Below are positions 2,750 through 13,707 of a stretch of DNA of 13,883 nt, piece after piece (position 1 is the stretch's first letter; every line of letters begins with the position of its first letter). The DNA is from Chloroflexota bacterium (GTDB lineage: Bacteria > Chloroflexota > Dehalococcoidia > GIF9 > UBA5629). Where the stretch lies: assembly GCA_026389655.1 (NCBI GenBank), contig JAPLHL010000100.1, positions 1-13,883 on the forward strand, in the 5' to 3' direction. The notes under the pieces were generated by a model. The model searched no databases, was not told the DNA's origin, and worked only from the letters and a program-made list of their open reading frames with translations. The translations under genes and the position numbers were made by a program.

Positions 2750-4324
2750 ATGCCGATATCCGCCCGTTTGCCGTATAACCTGCGTTACATCTTGCCCCGC
2801 ATAGCCGGACTATTAATCATCCTTTCCCTGGTGTTTTATCCCTGCGGACCGGTTTCGCCGGTCATGGCTGATGGCGACGGATGGTACCTGGACGGTGCAC
2901 CGGTTATTAAAAAGGGCGATATGACAGATACCGCCGCCTATTTCGGGAAGAAGCTGAGTTTAAGCGACGGCTCGGCCACTGGTTCAATGTCATGGAAAGA
3001 GACCAGCCTGTATAAATGCAGTGGCACCTACACAGGCACGGTGACATGGACACCCCTGCCTTCTTTTATGCAGCCCGGGAGCAAGGTCAATTTCACTGAG
3101 TCAGCGAAGACGACCGCACAAAACACCTGCGGCGATCGATCTATTGGTTCGTGGGGCACGGTAAACGTTGGCGGGATAAATATAGTTGAAGCCGCTGACA
3201 CACAGGCAGCGCCGGCTACAGGTACATACACGGTAAGAACTGGATCGCCCGGTGCGAAGCTGGTCGTTAATGTTCATGTGCAAGCCGCCAATCTGGGTGG
3301 CGACGTAACTTACAATTATACCTACAAGGGCCCGGGTACTCCGGCGCCAACTTCCACATCATCCACAACATCACCCAAAGCGTACGATGCACCCGGGCCA
3401 CTGGTGGATAACCTACCGGCCCCGCCGGGAGAAGAACCACTCGGCTTTGTCAACGAATTCAACGGCACAGTATATGTATCAGCCGGACCCTCAGACCTGC
3501 CTCCCTCACAGCAGAAATGGATGATCGTCAAAGGCAGGACGGCTTTGTATGATGGCTGGAACATCAGGACCGCCCCCGGAGCAGAAGCGTTAGTATTATT
3601 CTCGTCCGGCGCCCTGCTTAGAACTAAGGAAGCCACATGGTGGGAGATGAAACCGTTTATTACGGCAGAAACAGGTCAGCGGGAGATGTATGGGCGGCTT
3701 TTCAAGGGTATATACGATTTCTATATGGAAAAACACAAGGAAGATAATAAAAAATTCGAGGTTGAAACCGACATGGCCATCTGCGGCATCAGGGGTACCA
3801 ACTTTGTAGTGGAAGTGACGGATGCGCAGACGCTACTGAAGGTGATAGAGGGCATCGTGGAATTCACCTCCAAAAAGGACGGGCAGAGCGCATCCGTTGA
3901 GGCTGGTCAGATGATGGCAGCAATGGATTCAGGCCTGGGACAGAAGTCCACTTTTAATGCCGTCGCTGAGAAGGCCAAATGGGGTCCCATGCCACCGGCG
4001 GACAGCACCCCGGCTGGTACAGCACAATCCGGCAGTACCACACAGACCAAGAAGCCGGGTATTACTCTGCCCAAATGTCCCATCACATCGGCTCTCGAAG
4101 TCAACCCTGCTTCCCCCAGGTTGACCATATTCCGCAACTTCAGGGACAAAGTGCTGGCGAATTCAGAGCCAGGCAGGGAATTCATAGGCCTTTACTACGG
4201 GGCCGGGACATGGATTGTCGACAATTTACTGCCTTATCCGATAACACGGGCCCTGGCCAGGAACCTGATAATTGAGCCTGCCTCACTTGCATTGAACGCC
4301 AGCTCGTTTATCTGGAACAACTAA
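2750..4324 (+). CDS. Secreted FecR-domain protein with a degenerate CFI-box-type C-terminal domain
   Basis: This 524-aa protein starts with a basic segment and hydrophobic core (about residues 17-30) and a likely signal-peptidase site after VMA (residue 40), so it is exported. Residues 41-195 form a Cys- and Gly-containing beta-rich region of unknown type, followed by a Thr/Ser/Pro linker (196-230). Residues about 232-395 match the FecR fold: VKGRTALYDGW, FSSGALLR, then FEVETDMAICGIRGTNF and a V-EGIVEF segment. In many anaerobes such domains are ligand-sensing or structural surface modules rather than true sigma-factor regulators, and no sigma factor is adjacent. Residues 442-515 (KCPITSALE, then FRNFRDKVL, GLYYG and a hydrophobic helical tail) resemble the CFI-box C-terminal domain, but the box reads CPITSALE rather than CFIATAAYG. 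GGAGG at 2740-2744 supports the start. The biological role is unknown. Confidence 0.85.
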   Translation: MPISARLPYNLRYILPRIAGLLIILSLVFYPCGPVSPVMADGDGWYLDGAPVIKKGDMTDTAAYFGKKLSLSDGSATGSMSWKETSLYKCSGTYTGTVTWTPLPSFMQPGSKVNFTESAKTTAQNTCGDRSIGSWGTVNVGGINIVEAADTQAAPATGTYTVRTGSPGAKLVVNVHVQAANLGGDVTYNYTYKGPGTPAPTSTSSTTSPKAYDAPGPLVDNLPAPPGEEPLGFVNEFNGTVYVSAGPSDLPPSQQKWMIVKGRTALYDGWNIRTAPGAEALVLFSSGALLRTKEATWWEMKPFITAETGQREMYGRLFKGIYDFYMEKHKEDNKKFEVETDMAICGIRGTNFVVEVTDAQTLLKVIEGIVEFTSKKDGQSASVEAGQMMAAMDSGLGQKSTFNAVAEKAKWGPMPPADSTPAGTAQSGSTTQTKKPGITLPKCPITSALEVNPASPRLTIFRNFRDKVLANSEPGREFIGLYYGAGTWIVDNLLPYPITRALARNLIIEPASLALNASSFIWNN

Positions 4325-4611: not shown

Positions 4612-4956
4612 TCAATCGATATCCAGATGTTCCTGGATGGCCTCATGCACAGCACTGCGCAGATCGCTATCATCCAGATGGCCCAATAATCTGCCCAGGC
4701 GTCGCTTTGAGATAGTCCTTATCTGATGGGCCATAATAATAGACTGGGAGGGTTGCCCGGCCTTATGCTCCGGCAGAAGAACCTCGGAAGGATACAGGTT
4801 ACGCTGAGTGGAAGTCAGAGGCAACACGGTGACATTTGGCATGGCCTGATTGAATTCCTCGTTGCTGACTATGAGCACCGGCCTTAGGCCATTCTGCTCA
4901 GCCCCGGTTACCGGGTCGAGATTAGCTTCCATGACAGCCCACTGGTAAACAGGCAT
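4612..4956 (-). CDS. PemK/MazF-type toxin
   Basis: This 114-aa protein has the PemK/MazF (CcdB-like fold) plan of sequence-specific mRNA interferases. After the N-terminal strand comes G18-x-x-Q-x-G-L-R25-P-V-L-I-V-S, carrying the catalytic-type Arg. Then LPLTST (residues 46-51) provides the conserved Thr/Ser, YPSEVLLP is the next strand, and the C-terminal helices follow, ending HLDID. Its ATG overlaps the antitoxin stop by one base (TAATG on the minus strand), as is usual for co-translated toxin-antitoxin pairs. Length is typical. It is quite different from the rightward MazF at 5665-6012, so the two pairs are separate modules. The 3' end of this gene has a degraded relative at 6051-6118. 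Confidence 0.9.
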   Translation of the reverse strand: MPVYQWAVMEANLDPVTGAEQNGLRPVLIVSNEEFNQAMPNVTVLPLTSTQRNLYPSEVLLPEHKAGQPSQSIIMAHQIRTISKRRLGRLLGHLDDSDLRSAVHEAIQEHLDID

Positions 4957-5222
4957 TATCGAATCCCCCTGGATGATTCGGCGTCAGCGGACTTATAAAT
5001 CTCTTCCGTTTCTTTAATGTCTCTAATTAACAGCGGATCGGCAGCCCCTTCCTTCCACCTGGCCTGTCTTGACTGCCTGCGTATCTCTTTCAATTCCTTT
5101 ATGATAGCCTGCTCCACCAGGGCGTTCTTGCTCGCCATTGCACCCTGTGCCACGACCTCGTCGATTGCATCAAGAACGTCGGTATGCAGGTTAAATGTTG
5201 CTTTCTTGGTCTTACCGCGCAT
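4956..5222 (-). CDS. Ribbon-helix-helix antitoxin partner of the PemK-like toxin
   Basis: This 88-aa, charged protein has an N-terminal DNA-binding strand KATFNLHTDVL (residues 7-17) followed by two helices (about 17-27 and 31-48, SKNALVEQAIIKELKE). This is the CopG/MetJ-like ribbon-helix-helix pattern. The Lys/Arg/Glu-rich C-terminal half would wrap the toxin and neutralise it. The start is supported by GAGGTG (reverse complement of 5227-5232) five bases from ATG. It is first in the operon, with the toxin overlapping its stop. A palindromic site directly at the promoter (5248-5262) suggests autorepression, normal for this family. Confidence 0.87.
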   Translation of the reverse strand: MRGKTKKATFNLHTDVLDAIDEVVAQGAMASKNALVEQAIIKELKEIRRQSRQARWKEGAADPLLIRDIKETEEIYKSADAESSRGIR

Positions 5223-5370: not shown

Positions 5371-5411
5371 TTGACAACTATCCGTACAAAATGTATCCTC
5401 AATGTAGATAC
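5371..5411 (+). promoter_or_regulatory. Promoter and operator-like repeats of mazEF
   Basis: TTGACA (5371-5376, perfect), a 17-bp spacer, then TATCCT (5394-5399). Overlapping the -10 are AATGTA (5390-5395) repeated at 5401-5406, exactly 11 bp or one helical turn apart, and an inverted pair GTATC (5393-5397) / GATAC (5407-5411). This is a natural position for autorepression by the MazE-MazF complex. GGAGG at 5418-5422 follows, 6 bases before the mazE ATG. Confidence 0.68.
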
Positions 5412-5428
5412 TTTTATGGAGGTTAGAC

Positions 5429-5671
5429 ATGAGAGCTCGCATCCAGAAATGGGGCAACAGCCTTGCGTTGCGTATCCCCAAATCTTTCGCTACCGAAGCA
5501 GGACTACAGAGAGAAACTTCTGTTGAAGTATCGCTAGCAGAAGGAAAACTTGTAATAACTCCTTTAGCTCAACCCAAGCCTACACTAAAACAACTTCTGG
5601 CAAAAGTCACCAAAGAGAATTTGCATCATGAGATTGATACCGGCCCTGCTACAGGGAACGAAACGTGGTAA
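5429..5671 (+). CDS. mazE: MazE-family antitoxin
   Basis: This 80-aa protein has an AbrB/MazE swapped-hairpin DNA-binding domain at the N-terminus: KWGNSLALRIPKSF (residues 7-20), then VEVSLAEGKLVITPL. The acidic C-terminal tail (TLKQLLAKVTKENLHHEID, ending NETW) is the toxin-wrapping segment and closely follows the E. coli MazE pattern (ENLHENID...EVW), including the terminal Trp. ATG has GGAGG six bases upstream and a TTGACA promoter before it. The stop lies 7 nt inside the mazF frame, so the pair is translationally coupled. Transcription is divergent from the leftward PemK-type module. Confidence 0.92.
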   Translation: MRARIQKWGNSLALRIPKSFATEAGLQRETSVEVSLAEGKLVITPLAQPKPTLKQLLAKVTKENLHHEIDTGPATGNETW

Positions 5672-6012
5672 GCCCCCAGGATTACGTTCCTCAATGCGGT
5701 GATATTGTATGGATTACCCTAAATCCGCAATCAGGACACGAGCAAACCGGACGACGGCCTGCAGTAGTGCTGTCACCTGGAAATTATAACAGCAAGACGG
5801 GACTGGTTATATTTTGTCCTATTACCAGCCAAATCAAGGGCTATCCATTCGAGGTCCTTCTTCCCGAAGGATTGCCGGTTGCAGGGGCAATCTTATCTGA
5901 CCAGGTTAAAAGTTTAGATTGGCGTGCTAGAAATGCGGAATTAGTATGCGCCCTACGTGCCGAGACTATCTCGGAGGTACTCCAAAAATTGACTACATTA
6001 TTATCGCAATAG
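5665..6012 (+). CDS. mazF: MazF-family mRNA interferase toxin
   Basis: This 115-aa toxin cleaves mRNA at short sequence motifs in the MazF family. The start is GTG at 5665 (MVSPQDYVPQCGDIVW), which overlaps the mazE end by 7 nt and matches the E. coli MazF start MVSRYVPDMGD. Conserved parts are G-HEQTGRRPAVVLSP (24-38, with Arg31), YNSKTG, then CPITSQIKGYPFEVLLP (51-67, with Thr54) and SDQVKSLDWRAR (78-89). No catalytic residue appears lost, so the toxin should be active. The cleavage motif cannot be read from the sequence. The intact promoter and antitoxin upstream suggest a working module. Confidence 0.93.
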   Translation: MVSPQDYVPQCGDIVWITLNPQSGHEQTGRRPAVVLSPGNYNSKTGLVIFCPITSQIKGYPFEVLLPEGLPVAGAILSDQVKSLDWRARNAELVCALRAETISEVLQKLTTLLSQ

Positions 6013-6050
6013 GGTTTTATTCAATATTGTGATTGTATAATATAAAGTTT

Positions 6051-6118
6051 ATTGATATCCAGGTGTTTCCGGATGGCTTCACGCACCGCATTGCAGTTTC
6101 CCTGTTATGTCCAGTGGC
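6051..6118 (-). pseudogene. Remnant of the 3' end of a second PemK-like toxin gene
   Basis: Read leftward, this encodes NAVREAIRKHLDIN, matching the end of the intact toxin at 4612-4956 (SAVHEAIQEHLDID). At the DNA level 6051-6093 matches 4616-4658 at about 35 of 43 bases by my hand alignment. Beyond that the match continues only after a one-base difference that shifts frame (LDITGKL against LDDSDL), and it fades by about 6118. The stop codon is lost, and no N-terminal toxin part or antitoxin is seen. It is in the same orientation as the intact copy, on the far side of mazEF. A 62-codon open frame on the plus strand here is a by-product. Confidence 0.7.
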
Positions 6119-6226
6119 AGGGGCTCACTCAAAATTATCCTGAAATTTACCTAAATTTTACTGTCTGCTGCTATCATATCGCCCATAACCGGTTAATATA
6201 CGTTTATTTCGAGGGAATAAATCGAT

Positions 6227-7384
6227 ATGGCCAAGAATAAGCTATTAAATTCAATCGAAAAAGATCAGAAGAGCGCCTCTATAAAGGCCGAGCAGACGCA
6301 TTCACAAGTTGAGCAGGATGATGAAGAGCAAGGCATAAGGACCGATACAGCCTTCCCCCCACTCTCCAGGGCTGAAGCCATATTTGAACTTCAACAAACA
6401 TACGGCAATCAATATGTACGGGGGTTGGTGGAGCATAAAGAAGAAATAACTGATGAGAAAAGTGATAGCGCTATTGCCTCGCAAGCCCGTTCCATGCATG
6501 GACAGGGTAAATCACTACCGGGCAGTATGCGGGAGAGGGCTGAAAACAGGCTGGGTGAGAACCTGGAAAGTGTCCGGGTCCATACCTATCCCGAGGCTGA
6601 CCGCCTTATCACCGAAGCCGGGTCCCCGGCATTCACCGTGGGACAGGACATTTTCTTACGGGAGAATATTTTAGACAATGGCGAATCAGATATACTGGCA
6701 CACGAAGTGGTCCATACCATTCAGCAGAAATACGGGAGCGTGTCAGACCCGGAATATGAAGCTGAAAACGCAGGCCAAAGGGTCCTTAAGGGTGAATCGG
6801 TGTACATGCATCCGGGTCAGAGAATTCCAGTCCCTGCTTTACAACGCTATGCTACAAAGAACGGCAATATTACAGTCCATCAACCGACATATACCGACTT
6901 TGAGGTTACCGGAACATTGTCACGAGTAAAAATGGCATTGGACGCCAGGGGTGAATGGGGCAAGTGTTCATGGTACTTTGTAGAGGATACGCCCGGAGAC
7001 AGCAATGGAACCATACTCAAATGCCATCTGGATGTTTCCAATGAAATATTTCTACCGAAATGGACGGGCCCCGGATTTGAAAAGGCACCACCTGCTGCGG
7101 TGAAAGAATTCAACAGGATGTTAGGCTGTCTAAAAAAACACGAGGTAGGTCATGCCAAGAAAGCAGAGGCGGACGCCCCAAATTTCCAGAAGTATTTTAT
7201 AGGTAAGAATAATGCTGACATTGACACGCTCCACCAGGAAGCATTGGATAAACACAAAGCTGATGTACAAGACCCTTATGACGAGAAAAACAGCCACGGT
7301 GCGGATGAAGGTGTGTCCCTGAATACAGATACAGACCCGAAACGCACTCAAGCCGGGAATAAAAACAAACCGCGGCTAATATGA
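6227..7384 (+). CDS. eCIS-core (DUF4157-like) protein with a second DUF922-like metalloprotease domain
   Basis: This 385-aa protein is charged and has no signal peptide. Residues 52-66 (IFELQQTYGNQYVRG) match the short LQxxxGN motif that often precedes eCIS-core domains. Residues about 97-168 form the DUF4157-type domain: MRERAENRLGENLESVRVHT, AFTVGQDIFL, then the zinc motif H159-E-V-V-H163 followed by TIQQ. Residues about 215-360 look like a second metalloprotease: a beta-rich part (LPKWTGPGF), H305-E-V-G-H309, and YDEKNSHG (351-358), a pattern I associate with DUF922-type zinc proteases. DUF4157 domains mark cargo or toxins of extracellular contractile injection systems, but no sheath, tube or baseplate gene is here. 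GAGGG at 6211-6215 is a fair ribosome site. It overlaps the converging M28 pseudogene by 9 nt. Domain 1 is firm; domain 2 is probable. Confidence 0.82.
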   Translation: MAKNKLLNSIEKDQKSASIKAEQTHSQVEQDDEEQGIRTDTAFPPLSRAEAIFELQQTYGNQYVRGLVEHKEEITDEKSDSAIASQARSMHGQGKSLPGSMRERAENRLGENLESVRVHTYPEADRLITEAGSPAFTVGQDIFLRENILDNGESDILAHEVVHTIQQKYGSVSDPEYEAENAGQRVLKGESVYMHPGQRIPVPALQRYATKNGNITVHQPTYTDFEVTGTLSRVKMALDARGEWGKCSWYFVEDTPGDSNGTILKCHLDVSNEIFLPKWTGPGFEKAPPAAVKEFNRMLGCLKKHEVGHAKKAEADAPNFQKYFIGKNNADIDTLHQEALDKHKADVQDPYDEKNSHGADEGVSLNTDTDPKRTQAGNKNKPRLI

Positions 7385-8457
7385 TTCGATATAACGTTCC
7401 AATACCCTGACCATTAATTTCAGGTTATCGACGTTGACCCGTGCGGGATTATCCGCCGTGCTGTGAAAGGCTGTAACGCCAAGCCCCGGCTCACCCGAGT
7501 TGCTGATCGTAACCGCAGGGATACCTGCCGCCAAAAAGCGTTGAGCGTCGTCGGTGAGAGACGGATAACCCGGCTCGAGATCCTTGCCCGATTCAGCCTT
7601 CCATGCCTGGCCAACCCGGGTAATGAGTCCTGGATCGGCATTATAAAATATCAAAAATTCACCGTCCTTTTTCCAGTAGATCATCGGGCCATTCTGTCCT
7701 ACGCACTCCAGGTTGACGAGGCTTATGGGAAGATCGGGATTTGCTCCTTTGTAAAAGAGCGCCCGCACGTACGCATCGGCGCCCTGCAAGTTCACTTCTT
7801 CGCCCGACGTGAGAAGGATGGTAACCCTGCTATTGCCGAGGTCCACCTTTCCGTCATGGATATCTTTAGGACAAAGACCAGTCCCCAGTAGACTACTACC
7901 AGGCCTGCGAGCGAGACGACCACTGCCGTTACGGCTTTCTTCTTAAGCGCTGCATATCTCCCCGAAAATAACGTAAACGCGGCGAGGATGAGGCCAAGGA
8001 CTACCGCTACGGGAATGAAGGCATAAATCCTGGCACGCTGAATATGGTCCCAGAAATCCGTCTTGGAATCGAAATGCGCGGCAAAGACAAGTTCACGGAC
8101 AGGGTTAGGCACATTGTTGACAATGATGATATCCTGCCCGGCCTTCTGAATGATACCCGAGACAACAGGGATAAAAAGTTCGAACTCGGCGATGAGCAGG
8201 AAGGGTATCACAATTGCCACGATCAAGGCCGCGATGGATTTTTTCCTTAACAAGAAGATGAAAAGCAGTACCGCCAGCAACAGGATTGTTGAGCCGACGA
8301 TAAGCTGCATATAGGGATGCAGAGGGAATATCTGGACTACATACGGTATTCCCCAGTCCTTAAGCAGCGCCTGGATATATTTTGCGGTTTCTTCCAGGGC
8401 CTGGCTCTGGTTGGGCCGCGGCATCGAGAGTTGAGCTAGAATTTCAGCAAGGTCCAT
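7376..8457 (-). pseudogene. M28-family membrane peptidase gene, frameshifted with an apparent internal deletion
   Basis: Two frames together give one peptidase. Frame one (8457 to about 7865) encodes an N-terminal cap, two hydrophobic stretches (about 50-70 and 72-98), AAHFDSKTD with zinc-type His128 and Asp130, then two more hydrophobic stretches (about 145-163 and 175-197). Frame two (about 7865 to 7376) encodes HDGKVDLGNS, then TILLTSGEEVNLQG with the catalytic Glu pair, LECVGQNG, DDAQRFLAAGIPAV, and AFHSTADN with the last zinc His. The D-N-x-S-G segment, which supplies a bridging Asp in M28 enzymes, should lie between and is absent from both frames. The join is therefore a net loss of 3n+1 bases rather than a single-base slip. 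Frame one otherwise runs out at 7792. The start has GGGGAGG (8463-8469 reversed). Loss of the ligand makes activity unlikely. Confidence 0.8.
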
Positions 8458-8564: not shown

Positions 8565-10238
8565 TTACTTTGTTTTCAGCTTTTCTTTGATATCCTCTCT
8601 GAGGGAAGCCTTCATAATTTTACCCACCGGGTTCCTGGGAATGGCAGTGATAATCTCCAGGCGTTCCGGCAGTTTGTATGCAGCGATGCCTTTCTCCTTC
8701 ATGAAAGCCTTGATCTCATCCAGAGTCACCTTTTCCTCGCCCTTGGGGACAACGTAAACGGCGACCTTTTCGCCCATAGCCTCATCCGGCATGGCAACGG
8801 CTGCCACGTCAAGTATCTTAGGAAAGCCGAGGAGCATACCTTCCACCTCCTGGGCACTGATATTAAAACCGCCCCGGATGATGATGTCCTTGGTCCGATC
8901 GAAGAACCCTATGCAGTCGTTATCCTTGATCTGGAAAAGATCGCCCGTGTTAAAGAAACCATCCTTATCGAAGGCCCTGGCGGTAAGATCCGGCCGTTTG
9001 AAGTAACCCGGGATGACGCTGGGGCCTTTGTACCAGAGTTCCCCGACATCCCCTTCTTTGGTGATTTCCTCATGCGTAAGGGGATTAACTATTTTCAGCC
9101 GGGTATTCTTTGCCATTACCGACTGTTTGGCAGCCCATTTCGAGCCAGGTTTTCCATACTGGGGGAAATGATCGATGCGCATCTCGAGGTCCGGGATATC
9201 GTTGGGGCCGGCCACGTTACCCGTGCCTTCATTCTGCCCCCATATATTGGCAAACTCTATCCCCCACCTCCTTTTCAACTCCTGCACGGACCATAAGGAT
9301 GGAGGCGCAGCACCTATGGTGATGGCCTTCATTTTGCTTAAATCGAACTCATCCACCTTGGGGTGCTTCAGCAGGGCATTCACGATAGCCGGAACCAGAA
9401 GCGTATACTGGATATCTTCGAACATAAGCTGCATGATAAAAGTAGCGCCATCAAAGGGGTGGTGCAGATGGAAAGTTCCCCCGCTAATCAACCAGGGAAC
9501 AAAAACCGTCCCGATCGAAGCCATATTAACCAGCGGCCCAGCCGTAATAAGGTTGTAGCCCGGCTTAATCGGCGCCGTTTCATACTCGAAATTCATCAGG
9601 CAGATCCAGTTATTGTGACTTAAGGGGCAACCCTTCGGCTGGGCCTCAGTACCCGACGACCAGCACAGGGTGAAAGCATCGTTGGCATCAATGCGGATCT
9701 TATCGAGCTTACCGGTAACCGGCCCTTTGGCCATTTCCCTGATATCAGCCAGGGTAAAAATATATTTTATTGAAGGAAACTTGGGCTGGAGATTCTCAAT
9801 CATTTCCTTATGTTTGAATTTGGAAAATTCCTCGACGGTGATAAAAGCCCGCGCCTCAGTCATGCCTGCGATAAACTCGATCTCCGACTGACGCCACTGC
9901 ATGGGCATGGGAGAGATCAATGCCCCGGCCCGGGTGATGGCAAGGTAAAGCATCGCAAGCTCCCAGCAGTTGGGCAGTTGTACCAGGATGATGTCGTCTT
10001 TTTTGATACCCTTAGCCATCAAAGCCTCGGCGGTGGCATCTACGGCCCTATCTATTTCCCGGAATGTCATCCGCTCCGGTTTCAAACCAACCAATACTTC
10101 CTTATTGGGAGGATCGACAAGTCCCACTGCGTCCGGCGTTTTTGCGACGTTCTCCTTGAAATAGTCGATTAAAGTTTTCTTACCCCATACACCTTTCTTT
10201 GTCCACTCATCAATACTGGCCTGCGATGCAAAAATCAT
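8565..10238 (-). CDS. AMP-forming acyl-CoA ligase / synthetase
   Basis: This 557-aa adenylate-forming enzyme would activate a carboxylic acid to its acyl-AMP and then the CoA thioester in the cytosol. Motifs in order: the phosphate loop at 193-203 (WSSGTEAQPKG, normally TSGTTGxPKG), WGQNEGTG at 333-340, the TGD hinge at 431-433, DRTKDIIIRGGFNISAQEVE at 447-466, and the C-terminal catalytic Lys540 in NPVGKIMK. All key positions are present and the length is normal. AGGAGG lies 8 bases before ATG. The substrate cannot be told. Similarity to medium-chain, cyclic or aromatic acid ligases is only an impression. A relic of a 2-hydroxyacyl-CoA dehydratase subunit about 2 kb away hints at anaerobic acyl-CoA metabolism. 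No other pathway gene is adjacent. Confidence 0.92.
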   Translation of the reverse strand: MIFASQASIDEWTKKGVWGKKTLIDYFKENVAKTPDAVGLVDPPNKEVLVGLKPERMTFREIDRAVDATAEALMAKGIKKDDIILVQLPNCWELAMLYLAITRAGALISPMPMQWRQSEIEFIAGMTEARAFITVEEFSKFKHKEMIENLQPKFPSIKYIFTLADIREMAKGPVTGKLDKIRIDANDAFTLCWSSGTEAQPKGCPLSHNNWICLMNFEYETAPIKPGYNLITAGPLVNMASIGTVFVPWLISGGTFHLHHPFDGATFIMQLMFEDIQYTLLVPAIVNALLKHPKVDEFDLSKMKAITIGAAPPSLWSVQELKRRWGIEFANIWGQNEGTGNVAGPNDIPDLEMRIDHFPQYGKPGSKWAAKQSVMAKNTRLKIVNPLTHEEITKEGDVGELWYKGPSVIPGYFKRPDLTARAFDKDGFFNTGDLFQIKDNDCIGFFDRTKDIIIRGGFNISAQEVEGMLLGFPKILDVAAVAMPDEAMGEKVAVYVVPKGEEKVTLDEIKAFMKEKGIAAYKLPERLEIITAIPRNPVGKIMKASLREDIKEKLKTK

Positions 10239-12741: not shown

Positions 12742-12757
12742 TCAGTCGCATGACTGA
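12742..12757. other. Small perfect hairpin at the methyltransferase stop
   Basis: TCAGTC (12742-12747), loop GCAT, GACTGA (12752-12757). The TGA stop forms part of the stem. No T-tract follows on the minus strand, so it is not a clear terminator. It may be chance. Confidence 0.25.
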
Positions 12758-13707
12758 GATGCTATCAGCGATTTGACTAAGTGCTTCATAACGGGTGGAC
12801 AAACAGCATTCCCCATCAATTTTACCTTATCTCGTCTTGTTGCAATTCCTAATTTATAGCTTGCCGGGAAACCCATTGCTAATTTAAGCTCCTCCGGTTG
12901 TAACATGCGCATAAGATGGCCAGTCTTCGAGGGCTTCACAAATGCGAACCGATCCAGCGTTGTGATAGTTCGAAGTGGCTCATCTATTGGCTGCCACCCC
13001 CCACTTCCATCAGTCCCATAATATACAATCAAAAATGGCTCTTTTTTACCAAGAGCAGAAAAAGCACGTTCAGCACGTTCGATAGTTGCTGCCGCCCGCT
13101 TAGGAGAGAATAGCGACGTAAAGGCATATTTGCCGTTTAAATCAATAATATCACAAGCCATCCGCATCTTCCTTCGGGAAGGGTGCGTAATTTTAGGCAC
13201 CTCTTCTATTTGTGAGCAAATAAGGAACAGTCTGCGTCTCGACTGCGGAACACCAAAATCCTTGGCATTAAATATTTCTTGCCGTACAGAATATCCTAAT
13301 TCATTGAGTTCATTTAGTAAATCCTGGTGTCTGCCCCAGGAATTCATCTGAACAACATTTTCGACAATAATCCATTTTGGTCGAAATTCCTGTGCAAATC
13401 TTGTTACTTGAAACGCTGTTAATCGACTCTGTTCATCCCTAAGTGCAGCCCCTTTGGCACAACTATGATTAGTACATTCCGGAGATGCTAATATAAGTTC
13501 AATATCTCCAATCTGGCCATGAAGCCTACGTGGAATAATTTTACGGATATCTGCATTAATTGCAGTAACGTTGGGGAAGTTGCTTTTATAGGCGCTCGTA
13601 GCGATATCCCAATAGTCAACGCCAGCTACGATGTCTGCGCCAGCCGCCAGCGCACCAACACTGCTTCCACCTGCGCCATGAAATAAGTCCAGAGTTCTAA
13701 CAGTCAA
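12742..13707 (-). CDS. DNA (cytosine-5-)-methyltransferase
   Basis: This 321-aa enzyme transfers a methyl group from SAM to C5 of cytosine in a specific DNA site. Motifs: I, DLFHGAGGSS (7-16); IV, SPECTNHS (75-82) with catalytic Cys78, where the usual PPC is PEC; VI, VENV (115-118); VIII, QSRRRLF (155-161); late motifs PLRTITTLDRF (244-254) and GNAVCPP (299-305). The target-recognition region is short (about 165-240), so a short target is likely, but it cannot be read. The start is TTG at 13707 with GGAG (13713-13716 reversed) five bases before. An alternative ATG start would cut into motif I. Local base composition is visibly AT-richer than the metabolic genes, suggesting horizontal acquisition. 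The gene 12 bp upstream may be its partner in a restriction-modification or other defence locus. Confidence 0.93.
   Translation of the reverse strand: MTVRTLDLFHGAGGSSVGALAAGADIVAGVDYWDIATSAYKSNFPNVTAINADIRKIIPRRLHGQIGDIELILASPECTNHSCAKGAALRDEQSRLTAFQVTRFAQEFRPKWIIVENVVQMNSWGRHQDLLNELNELGYSVRQEIFNAKDFGVPQSRRRLFLICSQIEEVPKITHPSRRKMRMACDIIDLNGKYAFTSLFSPKRAAATIERAERAFSALGKKEPFLIVYYGTDGSGGWQPIDEPLRTITTLDRFAFVKPSKTGHLMRMLQPEELKLAMGFPASYKLGIATRRDKVKLMGNAVCPPVMKHLVKSLIASQSCD

Follow-up and report, generated by a model that had tools for sequence, protein, structure and literature searches.

The window considered here, a contig of 13,883 bases from a Chloroflexota bacterium (JAPLHL010000100.1 of assembly GCA_026389655.1), carries on its plus strand a gene (6227–7384) that joins two domains, eCIS_core and DUF922, in one protein of 385 amino acids with an ATG start. 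Both domains exceed their Pfam cut-offs, and each has its HExxH intact: eCIS_core (DUF4157, PF13699), a domain already known from cargo of extracellular contractile injection systems (eCIS), matches residues 97–169 (6515–6733; E = 4.8e-18, 65.5 bits against a cut-off of 22), and DUF922 (PF06037) matches residues 223–358 (6893–7300; E = 2.1e-9, 38.1 bits against 27). The original prediction, made from the letters of the DNA, had named both domains from their motifs; it was right about each, and the motifs on which it leaned are all where it had placed them: LQQTYGN (residues 55–61), HEVVH of the core domain (residues 159–163; 6701–6715; followed by an EYEAE segment at 176–180), HEVGH of DUF922 (residues 305–309; 7139–7153) and YDEKNSHG (residues 351–358).

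Ahead of the core domain lie a polar segment that is predicted to be disordered (residues 1–46; 6227–6364; predicted local distance difference test, pLDDT, below 50) and conserved leader helices with LQQTYGNQYVRGLVE (residues 48–69; 6368–6433), which are common to a second cargo-like protein of the same genome (on contig C510) and to eCIS-cluster proteins of other genomes. By reading of the translation, the protein has no signal-peptide-like start. An AlphaFold2 model of residues 205–371 alone has a pLDDT of 96.9; sequence searches of the PDB gave no relative of the whole protein or of the domain profile, a Foldseek search with the whole-protein model gave a best E of 0.087, which is not meaningful, and comparison of the DUF922 domain model with the PDB yielded nothing to confirm a zincin fold. 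Scans with PHROGs and PADLOC gave no match for this protein. DUF922 is present once in the genome.

Conservation of the two metal sites

With the whole protein as query we retrieved five proteins that carry both domains (the query counted) and one with the leader and DUF922 only. The bare DUF922 domain of the window protein gave no match at E 0.01; the corresponding part of a related fusion from an Anaerolineae contig (locus L018) retrieved 45 proteins, itself and P0004 included. The pooled homologues number 50, of which 43 were found through DUF922 alone; by precomputed domains 16 have eCIS_core and 34 are without it, some of the latter maybe cut by contig ends.

Residues E294, R297, L302, H305, E306, H309 and G358 are invariant in this pool, and HExxH conservation in 50 of 50 proteins indicates that the second HExxH of the window protein is more than chance. 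The wider set that we aligned (27 DUF922 rows, comprising seven family members and 20 locus proteins, with broken or partial loci dropped) includes distant proteins, and it too keeps H305, E306 and H309 in every row. As to a third ligand, H357 had been put forward at the outset and must be given up: this position is His in only 11 of the 27 rows, and in the pool it is His in 44 and Asn in six. Position 352 (7280–7282), which is Asp in 48 and Cys in two of the pooled proteins, is Asp in 23, His in three and Cys in one of the 27 rows, the alignment of the distant rows being less sure there. A position that admits only Asp, His or Cys fits a metal ligand, and D352 is thus the better candidate. 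We also rejected H343 as a ligand (His in 21 of 50) and R297 as a fixed partner of D352 (Arg in 12 of the 27 rows, while 352 stays Asp, His or Cys). The pattern of conservation suggests that H305, H309 and D352 would hold zinc, with E306 as the probable catalytic base.

The HExxH of the core domain is followed in nine of the 16 fused proteins, the window protein included, by an E.EA segment that we take, from gluzincin practice, to be the likely third ligand; the segment is gone in the other seven, so the DUF922 site, with its HExxH in 50 of 50, is the better-kept one. These counts bear on another division of labor, modeled on VgrG2b of the type VI system: the metallopeptidase activity would reside in the core domain, and DUF922 would assist it. 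The lack of the segment in seven of 16 proteins, set against the constancy of the DUF922 motif, and the 34 homologues without eCIS_core, some of them maybe truncated by contig ends, make this very unlikely. The VgrG2b C-terminal metallopeptidase, of the Tpe1/Tpi1 type (PMC6899460), is like the window protein in being an HExxH metallopeptidase served by a contractile system that injects it; it differs in belonging to type VI, in having an immunity protein and in being a gluzincin with a Glu ligand, kin of DUF4157 rather than of DUF922.

Injection-system genes elsewhere in the genome

The genome (G000; 2.59 Mb in 547 contigs; completeness 89%, contamination 5.5%) encodes three proteins with eCIS_core, and the sheath, tube and baseplate genes that the original prediction had proposed to look for are spread over three contigs other than that of the cargo gene. 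On C441, an eCIS_core protein adjoins genes for a sheath and a gp19 tube protein (Pfam), with a second tube protein recognized by reading of translations. By Pfam, C510 has another eCIS_core protein, beside Tail_P2_I, and C309 has gp25 together with a spike that bears Phage_base_V and PAAR; reading of translations adds baseplate J-type and LysM-type proteins on C309. The three contigs correlate in tetranucleotide usage at 0.82–0.85 with the window outside 5400–7500, as against 0.04–0.42 for stretches of seven other genomes; contamination is therefore not the simplest reading of their presence.

The C510 protein (L006; 1037–2107) is cargo-like in its own right: its leader is that of the window protein (54% identity across 28 residues), and after the core domain it ends differently, in a C-terminus with a pattern of H...D..HG type (by reading), for which there is no further Pfam match and no PDB sequence match. 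Between the window and C510 proteins, leader and core are thus kept and the C-terminus is exchanged, as is expected of polymorphic toxins. The other hallmark of that class, an immunity gene directly downstream, is absent: an M28-type gene is convergent here, and Pvc16 comes next in L018. For this reason we do not file the cargo as a polymorphic toxin with cognate immunity.

DUF922 proteins in eCIS clusters

DUF922 occurs in four of 198 relatives and in 19 of 400 genomes of the phylum, this genome being counted in both. The closest homologues, P0002 and P0003, could not be assigned to any genome: when 84 genomes of the order were searched with a profile, two besides this one gave matches, and these concern the leader–core part only. 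Among the matches listed, a contig search for the fusion found L018 alone, where an AAA ATPase gene ends at 1685, the fusion occupies 1688–2896 and a Pvc16_N gene starts at 2924. Outside this genome we located 23 places with DUF922 and compared the neighborhoods of 15 with the eCIS proteins of G000 and L018; the eight left out (G150:C89, G150:C101, G191:C53, G052:C28, G224, G443, G280 and G513) are mostly short loci that looked secreted or broken. Nine neighborhoods (L036, L037, L038 and L042–L047), which is nine of the 15 read and nine of the 23 found, lie in eCIS clusters.

Within these clusters the two domains are arranged in several ways. A Pfam scan of the DUF922 proteins of nine loci found core plus DUF922 in L018, L036, L042, L045 and L046, and DUF922 without core in L037 and L038 as well as in L039 and L041, whose neighborhoods showed no eCIS gene. 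In L042 the order is permuted, with DUF922 (a partial match) ahead of the core in a single frame of 1054 amino acids; in L038 the protein is split, the gene order being AAA, DUF922 protein, separate core protein, Pvc16, sheath. In one and the same cluster slot, DUF922 and core are found as a fusion, in permuted order or as two neighboring genes. At L037, the AAA–Pvc16 interval is filled by a core-type protein and, ahead of it, a row of three proteins with the leader; the frames of these three (1108, 575 and 715 amino acids) lie at 9523–17245, between the AAA ATPase and the core-type protein. The clusters of genus g173 have a large unassigned open reading frame (ORF) between the AAA and core–DUF922 genes (L046, 5130–9482, 1451 amino acids; L047, 10891–15285).

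The gene order could also be read in favor of an eCIS accessory or maturation protease, whose substrate in the producer would be the particle or its cargo and which would not itself be injected. At L018 and L042 the DUF922 gene is wedged in between AAA and Pvc16, too tightly for an immunity gene to fit, and the five DUF922 loci of genus g173 share one cluster position as far as their contigs reach, as a stable component would. The distribution of the domain argues the other way. Pvc16 is found in 82 of the 400 genomes, of which only 12 have DUF922; these are 12 of the 19 genomes with DUF922, as against 70 of the 381 others (Fisher p = 3.9e-5, a value that kinship inflates, one genus and one family each supplying five of the 12, and that takes both 400-genome samples to be identical). 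From the 82 we hand-picked 20 DUF922-negative Pvc16 loci: 13 have an AAA gene, and in six of these (L066, L067, L071, L081, L082 and L084) phmmer places a core-type protein directly beside it; at L083 no gene separates AAA from Pvc16. Core-type proteins are thus frequent occupants of the position next to the loader ATPase, and DUF922 is one partner that may or may not accompany them; being optional, DUF922 behaves like cargo, and we judge a role in particle maturation to be unlikely.

A leader shared by cargo-like proteins

Although most of the 50 homologues were retrieved through DUF922 alone, 47 of them align GN at the leader position, and a strict pattern matches the leader in 37. A leader profile of nine rows, searched in seven genomes, gave seven matches at E up to 1e-3, six of them on eCIS contigs (three on that of G191, two on that of G481 and one on C510) and the seventh being the window gene. 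The profile had been built with five of these seven among its rows; the two new matches are likewise on eCIS contigs. In G150, G340, G305 and G414 there was no match at this threshold, and the leader is therefore not universal. One leader-bearing protein on an eCIS contig (L057, 778–1866; G481:C27:9322) has a C-terminus that reads as peptidoglycan-binding-repeat-like.

A broader proposal would combine two ideas, and we offer the combination tentatively, considering it rather less probable than its opposite: that in this lineage a short, portable tag of conserved sequence (LQxxxGNxxVQRLV, about 22 residues) addresses cargo, with or without the core, for eCIS loading, and that DUF922 is an exchangeable metallopeptidase warhead with an HExxH plus Asp site, in a fold of two long helices for which no PDB counterpart was found.

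The contig around the cargo gene

The remaining genes of the contig are a tRNA-Lys, a FecR protein, two PemK/MazF modules, an M28-type peptidase, an arrestin-type protein and a C5 methyltransferase, with aconitase-type, dehydrogenase-type and AMP-ligase-type genes named by reading of translations. Upstream are the two toxin–antitoxin modules that had been noted beside the cargo gene: they are of PemK/MazF type (4612–5222 and 5429–6012) and divergently oriented, and one partner is ribbon-helix-helix-like (a match below cut-off). The nearer MazF-type gene ends at 6012, 215 bases before the cargo gene. Downstream, the convergent M28-type gene (7376–8457, minus strand) is split over two overlapping frames, 7376–7846 and 7792–8457, which indicates a frameshift or an assembly error. 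In a promoter and terminator scan, counts were within about one standard deviation of those in shuffled sequence, and the plus strand was without any site. The FecR protein (2750–4324) has a C-terminus near the CFI-box-CTERM model (36.7 bits against a cut-off of 40). The C5 DNA methyltransferase (12742–13707) has DrmMII as its best PADLOC match (E = 8.1e-98); it lies near the contig end, so any DISARM-type system would run beyond view.

The housekeeping look of the cargo gene's neighbors would suit an ordinary enzyme of the producer that captured a core domain by chance and is not delivered, as would the stand-alone DUF922 proteins of the same phylum, with N-termini that read as lipoprotein-like (L011, L014, L019 and L020). 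The window protein itself lacks a signal-peptide-like start, its leader is common to eCIS-cluster proteins and its family recurs in eCIS clusters, all of which makes a chance capture extremely unlikely.

Discussion

We consider it reasonably probable that the protein is an eCIS cargo: it would be loaded into the tube of the eCIS encoded on the other contigs and fired into a target cell, where DUF922 is predicted to cut target proteins through its zinc site. The link to eCIS is firmer than the original prediction could see, because structural genes are present in the genome and the same architecture stands in eCIS clusters elsewhere; taken as a whole, with its third ligand replaced, that interpretation is partly supported.

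By analogy with published precedents we can outline the steps of delivery. The disordered N-terminus and LQxxxGN leader may be read by an AAA ATPase of Pvc15 type during loading, the core domain may dock the cargo at the spike or baseplate, and contraction would then release it. The precedents comprise DUF4157 cargo in the tube lumen (PMC8894135), a tagged spike tip that co-elutes with a DUF4157 protein (PMC11126660), a small DUF4157 protein that binds the N-terminus of a core-less effector (PMC13277306), five DUF4157 proteins that are secreted in a sheath-dependent manner (PMC11566945) and the work in PMC11495950. For the last step, in which DUF922 would cut proteins inside the target cell, the argument is conservation of the motif: both the proteolysis and the toxicity of this warhead are predictions from sequence. 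Proteases are already known among predicted eCIS toxins (46 annotated of 2194; PMC11297309).

Several observations weigh against this reading. Published eCIS toxins mostly stay close to home, 88% of known ones lying within ten genes of the cluster (PMC11297309); here, as had been noted at the outset, no injection gene is in view among the proteins scanned on the 13,883-base contig, which ends within several genes. Pvc16 was not found in the 547 contigs of the genome, and the L018 AAA protein has one match there (E = 1.3e-12), covering residues 337–526 only, in a frame of 615 amino acids. In tetranucleotide usage the correlation between the stretch 5400–7500, where the cargo gene lies, and the remainder of the window is only 0.65. 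The GC content of third codon positions is 0.48 in the cargo gene; of six further window genes counted, four have 0.55–0.71 and two, the MazF-type and methyltransferase genes, have 0.41 and 0.36. Recent acquisition of the gene is therefore possible. Six of the 15 neighborhoods that we read (L039–L041 and L048–L050) have no eCIS match at E 1e-3, although four of the genomes behind them have Pvc16 on other contigs. An immunity gene, which the original prediction likewise had failed to see, is not evident in the ORF list, with no small same-strand gene after the cargo gene. In the literature consulted we found no description of proteolysis by any DUF922 protein, and Cgo1 of AlgoCIS, which has DUF4157 and a C-terminal HExxH, inhibits the growth of Escherichia coli independently of both motifs (PMC8894135).

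Some of these points can be accommodated. With no eCIS gene on its own contig, the window gene gives the impression of an additional cargo gene set apart from the cluster, and such a location is plausible because three of the sheath-dependent DUF4157 proteins are not placed at the cluster in the available text of PMC11566945. The missing immunity gene may suggest that the target differs in kind from the producer, or that the site becomes active only on release.

Cgo1 is a warning against assuming that toxicity is due to a protease, and it is the precedent for an eCIS cargo whose effect needs neither HExxH, for example through membrane damage or binding. It is the closest tested cargo with two HExxH motifs and has been shown to lie in the tube lumen. 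It resembles the window protein in its disordered N-terminus, its DUF4157 with HExxH and its second, C-terminal HExxH; it differs in being encoded in an eCIS cluster, and the likeness is one of outline, its C-terminus not being stated as DUF922 in that text. A strict HExxH together with Asp, His or Cys at position 352 in distant DUF922 proteins argues for a working metal site, so we hold an HExxH-independent effect to be quite improbable.

Other known systems are instructive as to how the parts may fit together. The eCIS-associated toxins (EATs) with N-terminal DUF4157 (PMC8213781, PMC11297309) have the same core, a separate C-terminal domain, a hydrophilic N-terminus and eCIS genes in the genome; they differ in that DUF922 is named in the main text of neither paper, and the present contig differs in having no eCIS gene. 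DUF922 itself is described as a predicted zincin-like metalloprotease family (PMC3650047), to which the window protein conforms in its HExxH and in exceeding the Pfam cut-off; it departs from the family in being joined to eCIS_core, and elsewhere in the phylum some DUF922 proteins look secreted. Sle1 and Sle2 of Streptomyces lividans (PMC13277306) combine a core-less effector with a small DUF4157 protein from a neighboring gene and so recall the split form at L038, although Sle1 is tape-measure-like and not DUF922.

Our literature searches, to which supplementary tables and preprints did not belong, found no link between DUF922 and eCIS in print. The finding connects contractile injection systems with a domain on which very little has been published, and it shows one cargo occurring naturally in fused, permuted and split form at a single operon position. 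These forms make two open questions testable: what the DUF4157 core does, whether as a docking adapter acting in cis or as one acting in trans, and by which feature a cargo is recognized for loading. For the second of these, the LQxxxGN leader is a candidate conserved tag in another lineage.
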